Positions 16,603 to 27,028 of a stretch of 64,000 bases of DNA are shown here, piece by piece. The notes under the pieces are model-generated. The model saw nothing but the letters and a program-made list of their open reading frames with translations. It did no database searches and was not told the origin of the DNA. Positions within the stretch are counted from its first letter, which is position 1. Each line of letters opens with the position of its first letter. Source of the DNA: Methylobacterium sp. (GTDB lineage: Bacteria > Pseudomonadota > Alphaproteobacteria > Rhizobiales > Beijerinckiaceae). Where the stretch lies: NCBI GenBank assembly GCA_020253445.1, contig JADCBP010000002.1, forward strand, positions 100,294 to 164,293. Reading direction: 5' to 3'. Made by a program: the position numbers and the translations under genes.

Positions 16603-17240
16603 GCCTCGATCTCCTCGGCGCCGGCCAGCACGCCCGCCTCGCGCAGCGCATAGAGCACTCCAAGCAGCGGCAGGCCGAGAATGGTCGCGTGATCGCCGAC
16701 GATCTCCGAAAAGAGATGCGGACCAAGACCCTCCATCTCGTAGCCGCCGACGGTTTCGGTGACGCGCGGACCCATCGCGTCGAGATAGCTTTCAAGAAAG
16801 GCATCGTCAAAGGGCCGCATGAGCAGCGTAGCCGAGGAAAGGCCTGCCCAGAGCACGGTTTCGCCGCGCCGCAGGGCCGAGGCCGAATGCAGGTGATGCG
16901 CCTTGCCCCGGAGACGCGCGATCTGCGCCTGTGCAGCGCCGCGATCCGCCGGCTTCATGAAGAGAGAGCCCTCAAGGTCGAGGGTCTGGTCGGCGGCGAG
17001 AACCAGGCGATCCGGGTGAAGCCGCGCGACAGCCTCGGCCTTGGCATGGGCCAGGGCGATGGCGATTTCAGCAGGGTCGGCACGGCTTTCCAGCAGAGTG
17101 GCGGCGATCGCCTTCTCATCCACCCGCGGCCGGATGATCTCGAGCGGGATACCACAGGATTCCAGCAGCAGCCGACGCGCGGAACTGCCCGAGGCGAGAA
17201 CGAGTGGCTCGCCCCCGAGCCAGAAAGGAGAGGCACTCAT
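16599..17240 (-). CDS. Maf-like nucleoside triphosphate pyrophosphatase
   Basis: House-cleaning pyrophosphatase acting on non-canonical or methylated nucleotides. 213 residues with [19 protein letters not shown] near the N-terminus, the acidic DEKAIA motif, and [13 protein letters not shown] with the catalytic Asp. [26 protein letters not shown] is the characteristic C-terminal block. Coupled by 4-base overlaps to both ppsR (upstream) and aroE (downstream). Confidence 0.93.
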
Positions 17241-18070
17241 TGCGCGATCAGCCCCAGGCGATGCGTGCGGTGCAGATCGATGATGGCCGCCGCGGTCTCT
17301 TCGATCGAGCGGCGTGTGACATCGATCACCGGCCAGTCATGCTTGTCGAAGAGCCGCCGGGCCCGCAGGATTTCATCGATCACGGATTGCTTGTCCGTGT
17401 AGGCCGCGTCCCGGTCATCGGCATGGAGCGCGAGCAGGCGGTTCTGGCGGATCTGCACGATGCGCTCGGGCGATGCCACGAGACCCACGACCAGCGGCTT
17501 GAGCAGATGCTCGAGTTCCGTCGGCGGCGGCACACCGGGCACCAGAGGCACATTGGCGGTCTTGATGCCGCGATTGGCGAGATAGATGCTCGTTGGCGTC
17601 TTGGAGGTGCGGCTGACGCCGACCAGCACGACATCGGCCTGCTCGAGATTGTCGAGCAGCTGGCCGTCATCATGCATCATGGTGAAATTCAGGGCATCGA
17701 TGCGCCGGAAATACTCGGTGGAAAGGGTGTGCTGTCCACCGATGCGCGGGGTCATCGCCACGCCGAGATAGGATTGGAACAAACCAACGATCGGCTCCAG
17801 GACCGACATGCTCGGGCACCCCATTTCCTCGCAGGCCGAGCGCAGGCGCTCCGACAGATCCTTCTCGACAAGCGTGAAGAGAACAATGCCCGGCTCGTTT
17901 TCGATTTCCGAGATCACGCGATCGAGTTGCCGCATGTTGCGCACCAGCGGATAGACATGCTCGATCGGAGAGATTCCCTGATACTGGGCCGTCGCGGCTC
18001 GCCCGACGGTGATCAGCGTCTCGCCGGTGGAATCCGAGACGAGATGGAGATGAAAGAAATTGCGGCCCAT
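17237..18070 (-). CDS. ppsR: PEP synthase/PPDK regulatory kinase-phosphorylase (DUF299)
   Basis: ADP-dependent kinase and phosphate-dependent phosphorylase that switches PEP synthase or pyruvate phosphate dikinase. 277 residues starting [20 protein letters not shown]-loop-like GVSRTSKT at 151-158 followed by [20 protein letters not shown]. Which target it controls is not shown here. In alphaproteobacteria this gene (RP001-type) typically flanks the origin opposite hemE, which is the arrangement seen. Confidence 0.92.
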
Positions 18071-18470
18071 CGCGTTCCGTAACTCGCTGGATTCGCCCGG
18101 TTGTCTGGCTTGTCTACGGACTTCTCCACAGGGCTGTTGTCAAGCCGGGAAAGCCGGGCTGAACGCGGGCATCGCTGACCCGCATCGCTTTCGGGGTGGG
18201 GAAAAGCCCGCATTCGGATTCACAGACCCACAAGCGGGAGAGGTTCGGAAATGTCAGGAATGATATCCGGCATAAGCTCCTGGCTTGTGAATCCGCGGCA
18301 GGAACTCTCTTGTTTTCAAGCGGTTCGGCAAGCACGGTCCGAGGCGGGCTGTGGATGGTCTCGCGGATGGATGGCAAGGTGCTGTGGACGGAAGCCGTCT
18401 TTCGCTCTAAGCCCCTCCAAGAGAAAAAGAAAAGAAGAAGGTTTCCTTTCTTTATTAGAGGGGTCTGGGG
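18071..18470. other. Candidate chromosome replication origin (oriC)
   Basis: This 400-bp gap without a credible gene lies between divergent ppsR and hemE, the position of oriC in Caulobacter and other alphaproteobacteria. It holds sites sharing the DnaA-box core: TTCTCCACA (18122), GGATTCACA (18216), its inverted partner TGTGAATCC (18286), TGTGGATGG (18350) and TGTGGACGG (18383); none is a perfect TTATCCACA. A purine-rich, AT-rich tract (18419-18460) next to hemE could be the unwinding element. Gene orientation flips here, as expected for leading-strand bias. Confidence 0.7.
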
Positions 18471-19490
18471 ATGGATGGTTTGCGTGGTTTGTTTACCGGA
18501 CGGGTCAAGACCCGGCCACCGGTCTGGCTCATGCGGCAGGCGGGGCGTTATCTTCCGGAATATCGCGAGGTGAGGGCAACGGCACCTGATTTCCTGTCCT
18601 TCTGTTACACCCCGGAACTCGCGATCGAAGTGACCTTGCAACCGATCCGGCGGTTCGGCTTCGATGCATCGATCATCTTCTCCGACATTCTCGTCATTCC
18701 CGATGCCCTGGGGCAGCGTGTTCGGTTTGTGGAAGGCGAAGGCCCAAGGCTCGATGCCATTGAAACACCGGAAGCGTTGACAGCGCTGGCAGCCAAGCTC
18801 GACGAGGAGAAGCTTCAGCCGGTCTACGAGGCCCTTCGCGGCGTGCGGGCAGCGCTCCCCGCCTCGACCTCGCTCATCGGCTTCTGCGGCGCTCCCTGGA
18901 CCCTGGCGACCTACATGATCGCCGGTCAGGGGACGCCGGATCAGGCGCCGGCGCGGCTCTTCGCCTATCGGCATCGCGAGGCTTTCGCGAAGCTCATCGA
19001 CACGCTGACGGAGAGCTGCATCATTCATCTCATCCGGCAGATCGATGCCGGGGCGGAAATCGTCCAGATCTTCGATTCCTGGGCCGGGCCGTTGCCGCTT
19101 TCGGAATTCGACGCATGGTGCGTGGAGCCCGTGGCGCGGATCACCAGGGCCGTTCGGGCACGCCACCCGCATGTGCCGGTGATCGCCTTCCCGCGCGCCG
19201 TCGCCGGAAGCCTGCGCGGCTTCGTCGATCGTACCGGCGTTCAGGCGATCAGTCTCGACACAGCGGCCCGACTGGCGGAGGTGCGGGTTGGCTTGCCGCC
19301 GCAGATTGTCACGCAGGGCAATCTCGATCCCCTCGTGCTGATCGCAGGTGGCGATGCGCTGGATCGCGCGGTCGATGACATTCTCGCGGCGACGGATGGG
19401 CTGCCGCACATCTTCAATCTCGGGCATGGCATCCTGCCGCAGACGCCGATTGCCCATGTTGAACGCATGCTGGAGCGCATTCGCGGATGA
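18471..19490 (+). CDS. hemE: Uroporphyrinogen decarboxylase
   Basis: Converts uroporphyrinogen III to coproporphyrinogen III in haem synthesis. 339 residues. Conserved [17 protein letters not shown] (substrate-binding Arg residues), [30 protein letters not shown] and the C-terminal [16 protein letters not shown] are intact. It is the first gene rightward of the candidate origin and overlaps hemJ by 4 bases. Confidence 0.97.
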
Positions 19491-22763: not shown

Positions 22764-24662
22764 ATGTTTCACGTGAAACAAGGCGGGCCTGCGGGCGGGT
22801 TGTCCTTCGATGTTATCGTCGTTGGCGGTGGGCATGCAGGCACCGAGGCAGCTGCCGCAGCGGCGCGGCTTGGCGCGCAGGTCGCGCTCGTAACCCATCG
22901 TTGGGACAATGTCGGTGTCATGTCCTGCAATCCCGCCATCGGCGGCTTGGGCAAGGGGCATTTGGTTCGGGAGATTGATGCACTGGATGGCATCATGGGT
23001 CGCGCAATCGACCGCGCGGGCATCCATTTCAAGGTTCTCAACCGGTCGAAAGGGCCTGCCGTTCGCGGTCCGCGGGCGCAGGCGGATCGTAAGTTGTACC
23101 GCCTTGCCGTGCAGGATCTGCTGGCTCGCCTGGAGAATCTGGCGGTGGTTGAGGGGGAGGTGGTCGACCTGATTGTGGAGTCGGGCTCGGTCGCGGGCGT
23201 TGAGCTGGCCGGCGGCTTACGAATTCGGGCGGGATCGGTGGTCCTGACCACTGGAACATTTCTGCGCGGCGTCATTCATGTTGGTGGTGACCGGACGCCT
23301 GGCGGGCGGGTCGGCGAAGCGGCCGCCGAGCGGTTATCGCTACGACTGCTCCAACTCCAACTGCCCATGGGGCGGCTGAAGACGGGTACGCCGGCGCGGC
23401 TGGATGGTGGAACGATCGATTGGTCGGCGTGCGAGCGGCAATATGGAGACAATCCTGCTGAACCCTTCTCCGCGCTGACGAGATGTATCACGAATCCGCA
23501 GGTCGCTTGCGGCATCACGTATACAACGCCGGCGACTCATCAGGTGATCACGTCCAACCTCCATCGATCCGCGATGTATGGCGGGCAGATCGAGGGAAGA
23601 GGCCCGCGCTATTGCCCGTCGATTGAGGACAAGGTTGTGCGCTTTGCGGATCGGGACCGTCACCAGATCTTTCTGGAGCCTGAAGGCCTGGAAGACCCGC
23701 TCGTTTATCCCAATGGGCTGTCGACCTCGCTGCCGGCCGAGGCTCAGGATGCGTTCTTCTCGACCATTCCGGGGCTGGAGAAGGCGCGGATCATCCGCTA
23801 TGGTTATGCGATTGAATATGACTATCTCGATCCGCGCGCCCTCCACCCGACTTTGGAGTTGAAAGTGCTCGGCGGCCTGTTCCTCGCTGGCCAGATCAAC
23901 GGAACCACCGGCTATGAAGAGGCTGGCGCACAGGGACTGGTCGCCGGGCTGAACGCGGCCCGCAAAGCTGGTGGATTGGACGGCATCACCTTCAACCGCA
24001 CCCAATCGTATACTGGCGTCATGATCGACGATCTCACGCGGCATGGGGTGACAGAGCCATACAGGATGTTCACGTCCCGATCCGAATTCCGCCTGCTGCT
24101 GCGTGCGGACAACGCGCCTGAGCGCCTCACAGATCTTGGCGTTTGCCTGGGACTGGTCGGCTCCGAGCGTTCTCTTCATTTCCGGGCCCAGCAGGAGCAG
24201 ATCGATTCGGTACGGCAACGATTGCGTTGGATTTCCGTGACACCGAATCAGGCAGCGGGCCACGGGCTTTCGCTCAATCATGATGGAGTTCGCCGCAATG
24301 GTTTGCAGTTGCTGGCGTTGCCTGGTGTCCAATTCGCGACCCTGGAAGCTTTCGATGCCGAACTGAAATTGACGCCAGTGCCGGTTCGGGAGAAGCTTGA
24401 GATCGAGGCCAAGTACATGGTCTACCTGGAGCGCCAAGCGCGTGACGTGGAACGACTGCGCCGGGACATGGACTTGTTGATTCCCGCTGAGTTTGCTTAT
24501 GAAGATCATCCGGGGTTTTCCGGCGAGGTTCGGCAGAAACTTGCGTCGATTCGGCCGCGTTCGATGGCTGAGGCTGCCGAGATTGAGGGAATGACACCCA
24601 CCGCGCTTCTGCTGCTCTCCGCGTTGGTTCAGAGAAGCAAGGACAAGGCCCATGTCTCCTGA
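22764..24662 (+). CDS. mnmG: tRNA uridine 5-carboxymethylaminomethyl modification enzyme MnmG (GidA)
   Basis: FAD enzyme that forms a complex with MnmE. 632 residues. FAD-binding [57 protein letters not shown] and [20 protein letters not shown] are all intact. The first codons read MFHVKQ because they consist of the parS palindrome; such starts fit its origin-proximal place. Overlaps rsmG by 11 bases. Confidence 0.97.
22765..22780. promoter_or_regulatory. parS centromere site (perfect 16-bp palindrome)
   Basis: TGTTTCACGTGAAACA is identical to the ParB-binding consensus of chromosomal parS sites. It occupies codons 1-6 of mnmG, about 4.3 kb right of the oriC candidate and 2.5 kb left of parA. 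ParB should nucleate here and ParA segregate the region. Confidence 0.95.
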
Positions 24663-25290
24663 GGGTGCCAGCGAGCTCGCATCGAAAGAAGCACTGATTG
24701 CAGATTTCGGTGTTTCATGTGAAACAATGAAGGGGCTGGAGGCTTACGTCGCTCTCCTCACGCATTGGCAAAAGACCACCAATCTCGTTGCCCCTTCGAC
24801 ACTTGGACAGATCTGGTCGCGGCATATCCTCGACTCAGCGCAACTCTTTGCACTTGCTCCGAACGCCCGAGCCTGGATCGATATGGGATCTGGCGGTGGC
24901 TTGCCGGGGCTGGTGCTGGCCTGTCAGCTCAAGGAAGTCGGGGGGACGATCGATCTGGTCGAAAGCAACAGCAAGAAAGCCGCCTTCCTGCGCCATGTCG
25001 CAACGCAACTGGCCCTCCCGGCCCGGGTGCATGGCGATCGCATCGAAACCGTCCTGCCAAAGCTTGCGCCCCCCGACATTGTGACCGCGCGAGCCCTTGC
25101 ACCGCTGACCGAACTGATCGGTTACGCAAAGCAGTTGTTGAAAAGCGGGGCAACAGGTCTCTTTCCGAAGGGGAGAGAGTATGCTGCGGAGTTGACCGAA
25201 GCCGGCAGGCACTGGCATTTCTCTCATGAGCTGCACGCGAGTCGAACAGAGCCTGAGGCGCGGATCATTCGGATCACCGGCCTGACATGA
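24652..25290 (+). CDS. rsmG: 16S rRNA (guanine-527-N7) methyltransferase RsmG (GidB)
   Basis: SAM-dependent methylation of 16S rRNA; loss in other bacteria gives low-level streptomycin resistance. 212 residues. [22 protein letters not shown] and the SAM-binding [17 protein letters not shown] are diagnostic. It contains a second parS-like palindrome near its 5' end and overlaps the longest parA reading frame by 4 bases. Confidence 0.95.
24711..24726. promoter_or_regulatory. parS-like site, one mismatch
   Basis: TGTTTCATGTGAAACA differs from the parS consensus only at position 8 (C to T), breaking the central CG. It lies inside rsmG, 1.95 kb from the perfect site. One-mismatch sites can bind ParB in other species; activity here is inferred. 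Confidence 0.7.
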
Positions 25291-25325
25291 GGTCCTGTCG
25301 ACCCAAGGATTTCCGGGAGAGACCC

Positions 25326-26117
25326 ATGAAGCCTCGTGTTCTAACGATTGCGAACCAGAAGGGCGGCGTGGGAAAGACCACGACAGCCATCAATCTGGGT
25401 ACTGCCCTGGCTGCCATTGGCGAGCATGTCCTGCTGATCGATCTTGATCCCCAGGGCAATGCTTCGACGGGTTTGGGTTTGGATGGCGCCTCGCGGACTC
25501 GATCGAGCTATGATGTGCTGCTCGGCGAACTTGATCTGGTGCAGGCTGCGCAAGCCACGGATGTTCCCCGCGTATCCATCGTGCCGGCGACGATGGATCT
25601 TCTGGGTGCCGAGATCACGCTCGCCGGGCAGAAAGACCGCACGCATAAGCTGCGTGCCGCGATTGACCGTCTCGGCGCGAATGCCCCATTCTCCTATATT
25701 CTCATCGACTGTCCGCCTTCCTTGAACCTGCTGACCATCAACGCGCTCGCGGCTTCGGATGGCGTGCTTGTGCCGTTGCAATGCGAATTCTTTGCTCTGG
25801 AAGGCTTGAGCCAGCTCCTCAAGACGGTCGAGCAAGTGCGGAACTCCCTCAATCCGGACCTCGAGATCTATGGCGTGGTTCTCACCATGTTTGACCCGCG
25901 GAACAATCTCGCCAATCAGGTCATCCGGGATGTCCGGCAGTTCCTCGGCGCGAAGGTTTTCGAGACTGTCATCCCGCGCAATGTTCGTGTGTCTGAAGCC
26001 CCATCTTTCGGCAAGCCGGCGCTTCTCTATGATCTCAAATGCGCGGGCAGCCAGGCTTATCTGAAGCTGGCATCCGAAGTGATCCAGCGTGAGCGCCTGA
26101 TGCAGGCAGCCGAGTGA
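25326..26117 (+). CDS. parA: Chromosome partitioning ATPase ParA
   Basis: Walker-type ATPase that moves ParB-parS complexes. From the ATG at 25326, after a GGGAGA site, 263 residues: ANQKGGVGKTTTAINLG (deviant Walker A, KGGVGKT 12-18), LIDLDPQGNASTG, and ILIDCPPSLNLLTINAL. A longer start at 25287 overlaps rsmG but adds a non-conserved leader. Part of the rsmG-parA-parB run. Confidence 0.96.
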   Translation: MKPRVLTIANQKGGVGKTTTAINLGTALAAIGEHVLLIDLDPQGNASTGLGLDGASRTRSSYDVLLGELDLVQAAQATDVPRVSIVPATMDLLGAEITLAGQKDRTHKLRAAIDRLGANAPFSYILIDCPPSLNLLTINALAASDGVLVPLQCEFFALEGLSQLLKTVEQVRNSLNPDLEIYGVVLTMFDPRNNLANQVIRDVRQFLGAKVFETVIPRNVRVSEAPSFGKPALLYDLKCAGSQAYLKLASEVIQRERLMQAAE

Positions 26118-26131
26118 GGGGGAGAGGCCCG

Positions 26132-27028
26132 ATGAACGACGATCTTTCCAAAAACCGTCTGGGTCGCGGCCTGGCCGCCTTGCTGGGAGATGTCGGCGCC
26201 GAGAGCGCCGCCGAGAAGCGGCTGAGGAGCCAGCGTCGGGTGCCGATCGAGTTCCTGCGCCCGAACCCGATGAACCCTCGCGTGACCTTTCACGAGGCGG
26301 ACCTCGAGGAGCTGGCGCAATCGATTCGGGAGCGTGACATCATTCAGCCGATTGTCGTGCGCGGTGTCCCCGGTGTGCCAGATGCCTTCGAAATTATCGC
26401 GGGCGAGCGCCGCTGGCGCGGGGCCCAGCGCGCCGGCCTGCATGATGTTCCCGTGGTCATCATCGAGGCGGATGACAAGCAGGCCCTCGAGCTGGCAATC
26501 ATCGAGAATGTGCAGCGGGCGGATCTCAACGCGCTGGAAGAGGCGAGGGGGTACGAATCGCTGATCCTGCAATATGGTTACACCCAGAGCGATCTCTCGC
26601 AGATCCTTGGGAAGAGCCGCAGCCATGTCGCGAACACATTGCGTCTGGCGCGATTGCCGGATGGCGTGAAGGAGAAGCTCGCCAGCGGCGCGCTTTCCGC
26701 CGGCCACGCCCGCGCCCTTCTTTCCGTCTCAGATCCGGAACTTGTAGCGAAACGCGTTGTTGATCAGGGGCTTACGGTCCGAGACGTCGAGCGTATCGCG
26801 CAGAGGGAGGCGGAGGGCGAAGCGCCTCGCCAGCCTCGTATTCGCGAGAAGGATGCCGATACGAGAGCGCTGGAGCAGCGCCTTTCCGATCTTCTCGGCC
26901 TGGCCGTCAGCATAGAGCATCGGGGTGAGAAGGGCGGAGCGATCACGATCCGCTACCGCACGCTCGAACAGCTCGATGCCTTGAGCCATCGGCTGGCTGT
27001 ATCAGTTGCTGCTCCGGCGCGCGGCTAG
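26132..27028 (+). CDS. parB: Chromosome partitioning CTPase/DNA-binding ParB
   Basis: Binds parS and spreads as a CTP-dependent clamp. 298 residues from the ATG after GGGGGAGAGG. The N-terminal KNRLGRGLAALLGD is the ParA-contact motif; IIAGERRWRGAQRAG is the CTP/arginine-patch box; the HTH is SDLSQILGKSRSHVANTLRLARLP; a C-terminal dimerisation domain follows. Its last 27 bases overlap the convergent holA. Confidence 0.96.
   Translation: MNDDLSKNRLGRGLAALLGDVGAESAAEKRLRSQRRVPIEFLRPNPMNPRVTFHEADLEELAQSIRERDIIQPIVVRGVPGVPDAFEIIAGERRWRGAQRAGLHDVPVVIIEADDKQALELAIIENVQRADLNALEEARGYESLILQYGYTQSDLSQILGKSRSHVANTLRLARLPDGVKEKLASGALSAGHARALLSVSDPELVAKRVVDQGLTVRDVERIAQREAEGEAPRQPRIREKDADTRALEQRLSDLLGLAVSIEHRGEKGGAITIRYRTLEQLDALSHRLAVSVAAPARG

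Follow-up and report, generated by a model that had tools for sequence, protein, structure and literature searches.

The 400-bp gap between the divergent genes ppsR and hemE is predicted to be the chromosomal replication origin (oriC) of this bacterium, a reading to which sequence comparison leads us to assign a probability of about 90%. An oriC at this site had been proposed in a preliminary description, and the proposal is supported by gene context, a cluster of DnaA boxes, an AT-rich unwinding tract, nearby parS sites, a phylogenetic footprint and, in two relatives, the polarity of words that we take to be KOPS-like. The locus very probably belongs to an already-known class, the alphaproteobacterial hemE–COG1806 oriC. 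It provides a usable oriC coordinate for a Beijerinckiaceae-like genus that has received little study and in which GC skew fails to show the origin, and the footprint across 15 genomes indicates which boxes are likely to matter.

Genomic context of the ppsR–hemE gap

The window, that is, the whole 64-kb stretch of DNA analyzed here, corresponds to positions 100294–164293 of contig C11 in a genome of 18 contigs and 3.28 Mb; among named relatives, the closest to it are Rhizobiales metagenome bins of the Beijerinckiaceae type (HemE 73%). The candidate oriC lies at C11:118.4–118.8 kb and is bounded exactly by the two divergent genes (Table 1). Rightward, the gene order is hemE, a small gene, rho, mnmE, mnmG, rsmG, parA and parB; leftward, it is ppsR, maf, aroE, coaE and dnaQ. 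Curated cut-offs were passed by hemE, rho, mnmE, mnmG, rsmG, parB, ppsR and dnaQ, and the remaining neighbors (e.g., maf, aroE and coaE) were named from weaker matches, from reading of the translation or from position.

The absence of a credible gene from these 400 bp and the divergence of the flanking genes had both been reported previously, and the coordinates proved exact. Open reading frames that cross the gap, such as 18114–19457 on the minus strand, were rejected as genes, being either antisense to hemE or short. An Rfam scan returned no match above gathering scores and two weak, chance-like matches below them, and a scan for sigma-70 promoters and terminators found no promoter-like site and no terminator.

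Table 1. Features of the candidate oriC and its neighborhood, in window coordinates
Feature	Position	Strand	Remarks
ppsR (DUF299/COG1806, PEP synthase/PPDK regulator), left boundary	17237..18070	-	NCBIfam PRK05339.1, 341 bits, above cut-off; start at 18070
Candidate oriC	18071..18470		400 bp; GC 57% vs 64% for the genome
Predicted DnaA box 1, TTCTCCACA	18122..18130	+	Within conserved block CTTCTCCACAGGGCTGTTGTCAAG; conservation percentile 0.98 in the gap
Putative weak box 2, TTTTCCCCA	18197..18205	-	Several congeners have better boxes here, e.g., TTTTCCACA, TCATCCACA
Predicted DnaA box 3, GGATTCACA	18216..18224	+	Followed by conserved GCGGGA; GANTC inside
Box-like site, AGACCCACA	18224..18232	+	One-base overlap with box 3; not conserved
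Predicted DnaA box 4, GGATTCACA	18286..18294	-	Inverted relative to box 3; box kept here in G069, G062 and G064; GANTC inside
IHF-like site, TTTCAAGCGGTTC	18314..18326	+	7/9 positions
Predicted DnaA box 5, CCATCCACA	18350..18358	-	YCACA-rule match
Predicted DnaA box 6, CCGTCCACA	18383..18391	-	Conserved hemE-proximal box; conservation percentile 0.97
AT-rich purine/pyrimidine tract, presumed DNA unwinding element	18419..18460		Beside hemE; holds the least stable 30-mer
hemE, right boundary	18471..19490	+	TIGR01464, 393 bits, above cut-off; start at 18471
parS, TGTTTCACGTGAAACA	22765..22780		Perfect; at the mnmG start
parS, TGTTTCATGTGAAACA	24711..24726		One mismatch
parA	25287..26117	+	Lies ahead of parB; its ParA/MinD family matches fall below cut-off; assignment partly inferred
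parB	26114..27028	+	TIGR00180, 179.6 bits, above cut-off

A cluster of degenerate DnaA-box-like sites

Boxes were called by requiring a YCACA core, the criterion of the preliminary description itself, together with at least 6 of 9 matches to TTATCCACA. Under this rule the gap contains six degenerate box-like sites, none of them perfect (boxes 1, 3, 4, 5 and 6 and the site at 18224; Table 1), compared with a genome mean of 0.31 sites per 400 bp. The earlier account of five degenerate boxes was therefore right about the degeneracy and the shared core and wrong about the count. Its inverted pair of GGATTCACA is real, with 61 bp separating the two copies.

The genome-wide scan covered 2.51 of 3.28 Mb; the other ~0.77 Mb includes contigs C17, C18 and, apart from the dnaA locus, C15. 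Within the scanned part, the gap is the sole 400-bp stretch with six YCACA-rule sites. The exceptionality of the cluster depends on how a box is defined: under a plain Hamming rule of at least 7 of 9 matches the gap holds 3 sites, a number equaled or exceeded by 192 stretches in the same 2.51 Mb, and is unremarkable. The 3 sites nevertheless exceed the 0.38 expected at this threshold from composition-matched shuffles of the gap.

The working set probably comprises predicted boxes 1, 3, 4, 5 and 6 plus the very weak site at 18197, and the box-like sequence at 18224 is probably not functional. The weak site TTTTCCCCA includes TCCCCA, as, we presume, Caulobacter W-boxes do. The perfect box TTATCCACA occurs 0 times in the whole genome, compared with 12 times for the reversed word; because a fifth-order Markov model expects only ~1.9 copies in 2.51 Mb, this absence is not notable and was dropped as a signal.

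The box-contacting region of the organism's own DnaA (GGRDHTTVLHA) matches that of E. coli DnaA solved on DNA (1J1V), so a standard box would be expected. Altered DnaA specificity was accordingly rejected, and the departure from the standard lies in the DNA rather than in the protein. The dnaA gene sits away from the candidate oriC, on contig C15. A cluster of perfect boxes at another site such as dnaA, which the preliminary description had set against its own proposal, was not seen: the dnaA locus was searched and held no box cluster, and the YCACA cluster of the gap had no equal in the 2.51 Mb scanned. As a separate observation, a second open frame of ~170 residues at ~610 kb on contig C14 (G000:C14; L002 1501–1668) carries the DnaA C-terminal DNA-binding domain alone, without the ATPase part.

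The AT-rich tract and accessory sites

The purine-rich AT tract described earlier at the hemE end of the gap is real, and it contains the least stable 30-mer (18427–18456) of the 63,970 in the window. In most congeners, the least stable 40-mer lies at the same tract position. Of 11 distinct congeneric lineages, 8 have their best match to the IHF consensus at the same place; it is perfect in two and reaches 7/9 in our own species. A search allowing one mismatch accordingly gives no match in our gap. The CtrA site TTAA-N7-TTAA was not found in the gap (best 5/8), and such sites have not been seen in most other alphaproteobacterial origins (PMC4468827). The published DnaA-trio arrangement, which requires at least three NAN trios 0–16 bp from a box (PMC8287927), was likewise not found, even when as many as 3 box mismatches were allowed.

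Strand polarity, parS and the position of the predicted origin

A strongly oriented word, GGGCAGGG, was found de novo in our own genome and is presumably KOPS-like, that is, akin to FtsK-orienting sequences. Its polarity flips cleanly at C13:127–129 kb, which probably marks the replication terminus. Near the gap on C11 the KOPS-like sites of our own genome are few and of mixed polarity. In sister genome G064, GGGCAGGGR changes from 35 minus/8 plus to 1 minus/8 plus between 1,079 and 1,156 kb (Fisher p 0.0001). This 77-kb bracket contains the ppsR–hemE gap (ppsR start at 1,152.4 kb), and a split placed at ppsR is as good as the best split. In the closed genome G007, hemE (704 kb) falls inside a 326-kb flip bracket (480–806 kb), and polarity flips the other way at 2.90–2.94 Mb, about half a genome away. 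The closed genome G058 has its best flip at 1.35–1.46 Mb of contig C1 versus hemE at 1.06 Mb, 0.3–0.4 Mb apart, with a split at hemE fitting 28 of 37 sites versus 31 for the best split; this offset suggests either that a region near the origin has been inverted or that the origin there sits at a different position.

The genome has only two parS sites, both 4–6 kb to the right of the gap. Cumulative GC skew, the check proposed in the preliminary description, returned an ambiguous answer: the minimum on C11 falls at 98,970, 19 kb to the left of the gap, and the skew of our own genome is too weak to localize an origin. Cumulative GC skew and skewed octamers found de novo gave noise-limited minima at 99 and 142 kb that flank the gap. 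GC skew has also been reported as insufficient to place origins in other alphaproteobacteria (PMC1914354) and in Methylocystis SC2 (PMC3794950).

We consider it very unlikely that the true origin lies some tens of kilobases off, for example at the C11:99 kb skew minimum or nearer parS, the gap itself being a relic or a site of DnaA binding. Such a displacement would accommodate the skew minimum, which is 19 kb leftward of the gap, and would fit within the wide polarity brackets of the relatives (77 and 326 kb), but no other site on C11 or within the scanned 2.51 Mb has a comparable YCACA-box cluster, the length and architecture of the gap are conserved in distant relatives, and the origin of Caulobacter has been mapped between the same gene pair, hemE and the COG1806 gene (PMC1914354).

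Conservation of the gap among relatives

We compared homologous ppsR–hemE gaps at 87 distinct loci, mostly 300–600 bp long. They contain a mean of 3.4 boxes versus 0.6 in dinucleotide shuffles, and their commonest feature is a minus-strand box 80–160 bp before hemE, represented here by box 6. Most of these boxes are imperfect, and Caulobacter uses weak G- and W-boxes (PMC4468827); the earlier characterization of the present set as unusually degenerate was therefore mistaken, and weak boxes are usual, not exceptional, in hemE–COG1806 origins.

The genus-level footprint was built from 15 congeneric genomes with the gap. The outermost boxes, 1 and 6, are among the most conserved 3% of the gap, and box 3 and the AT tract show above-average conservation. 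Boxes 4 and 5 are kept in nearer species only. For the boxes together, a circular-shift conservation test gave a p value of only 0.034.

Adjoining box 1, the minus strand carries a CTTGACA-like element that is also conserved in most congeners, and part of the conservation may thus reflect a promoter. It is nevertheless highly improbable that the gap is a divergent promoter region only, in which the conserved blocks would serve ppsR and hemE as promoter and leader elements and the role of DnaA would not go beyond regulating the two genes. GANTC sites and purine tracts can be promoter features as well, but five congeners (G070–G074; L121–L125) keep box 1 and have lost the CTTGACA element, and promoter conservation alone is therefore insufficient. 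Moreover, the sigma-70 scan found no promoter-like site, and six boxes, an unwinding tract, nearby parS sites and polarity flips in two relatives would be superfluous for a promoter. That the cluster is a meaningless product of chance in a low-GC gap is scarcely credible: its prominence is sensitive to the box definition, but nearly every homologous gap shows box enrichment, and the positions of the boxes are conserved.

As a side observation, the CTTGACA-like element lies inside the conserved block of box 1 (18120–18145), which may link the transcription of ppsR to the binding of DnaA.

Comparison with known origins and a proposed initiation mechanism

Of the features that define the hemE–COG1806 class (PMC1914354), the gap has the boundary genes, several predicted boxes, a higher AT content with an AT-rich tract, and, by the YCACA rule, no competing cluster in the 2.51 of 3.28 Mb scanned. 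CtrA sites are absent and are not a required feature, and the IHF-like site is weak in our own species (7/9). The strand-composition shift is weak in our own skew; the KOPS flip occurs at the locus in G064 and G007, and not in G058.

The gap resembles Cori of Caulobacter crescentus in its boundary genes, its length (~400 bp or more), its weak DnaA boxes, a single IHF-like site and an AT-rich tract of ~40 bp (PMC1914354, PMC4468827), whereas it lacks the CtrA site and its box sequences are not of the G-box type. The predicted oriC of Methylocystis sp. SC2, a methanotroph relative, is similar in that GC skew failed and the region is not near dnaA; its GC content is ~10% below that of the chromosome (PMC3794950). 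It differs in spanning 1063 bp with three E. coli-type boxes (Ori-Finder), in contrast to our 400 bp and weaker boxes. Origins of Wolbachia, Rickettsia and their relatives share the hemE boundary, DnaA and IHF sites and an AT-rich gap (PMC1914354), but most of them have CtrA sites, and in Wolbachia the COG1806 gene is apart from hemE. The B. subtilis-type basal unwinding system likewise places a group of DnaA boxes next to an AT-rich tract; unlike in that system, the published rule identifies no trio at 16 bp or less from a box in our gap.

For the predicted origin, we propose that DnaA would bind the weak boxes in two groups, a left group (1–3) and a right group (4–6), and that IHF would introduce a bend in the interval from box 4 to box 5. 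With DnaA loading cooperatively onto weak boxes and no single strong anchor box, opening would be tied to the level of ATP-DnaA. The DnaA complex would then melt the AT-rich tract beside hemE, where the helicase would be loaded, and initiation would presumably be bidirectional. Segregation of the new origins would fall to ParB, acting at the two parS sites 4–6 kb to the right.

GANTC sites in front of hemE

In 72 of the 87 homologous gaps, GANTC, the CcrM site, occurs in the last 80 bp before hemE, with all four middle bases represented. Dinucleotide shuffles gave a mean of 32 of 87 such gaps and a maximum of 42 in 200 runs, and the control of nearest composition, AGNCT, was found near hemE in 48 of 87. 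The background frequency of GANTC is 15.6% in ordinary 80-bp windows and 30% in AT-rich ones. Within the genus, a CcrM-type RAMA domain is present in 15 of 17 genomes and GcrA in all 17. GANTC in the Caulobacter origin and intergenic GANTC enrichment have already been reported (PMC3973325). Our own genome and that of its nearest sister (G067) have no GANTC in the tract (window 18390–18470, the last 80 bp before hemE).

A tentative and rather doubtful reading is that GANTC is a standard part of the hemE-type unwinding tract across Alphaproteobacteria, where hemimethylation would affect re-initiation or hemE transcription, and that it was lost in our own species and the nearest sister, leaving GANTC only elsewhere in the gap. 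We treat this pattern as a lead only, because the sequences share ancestry, the hypothesis arose from the same data and an effect of the hemE promoter is possible. If upheld by a phylogeny-aware test, it would link the cell-cycle methylase to the opening site of the origin, a link testable in existing alphaproteobacterial models.

Our own gap contains three GANTC sites, two of them inside boxes 3 and 4. These two, at 18217 and 18289, lie in both inverted copies of GGATTCACA, and methylation could affect DnaA binding there.
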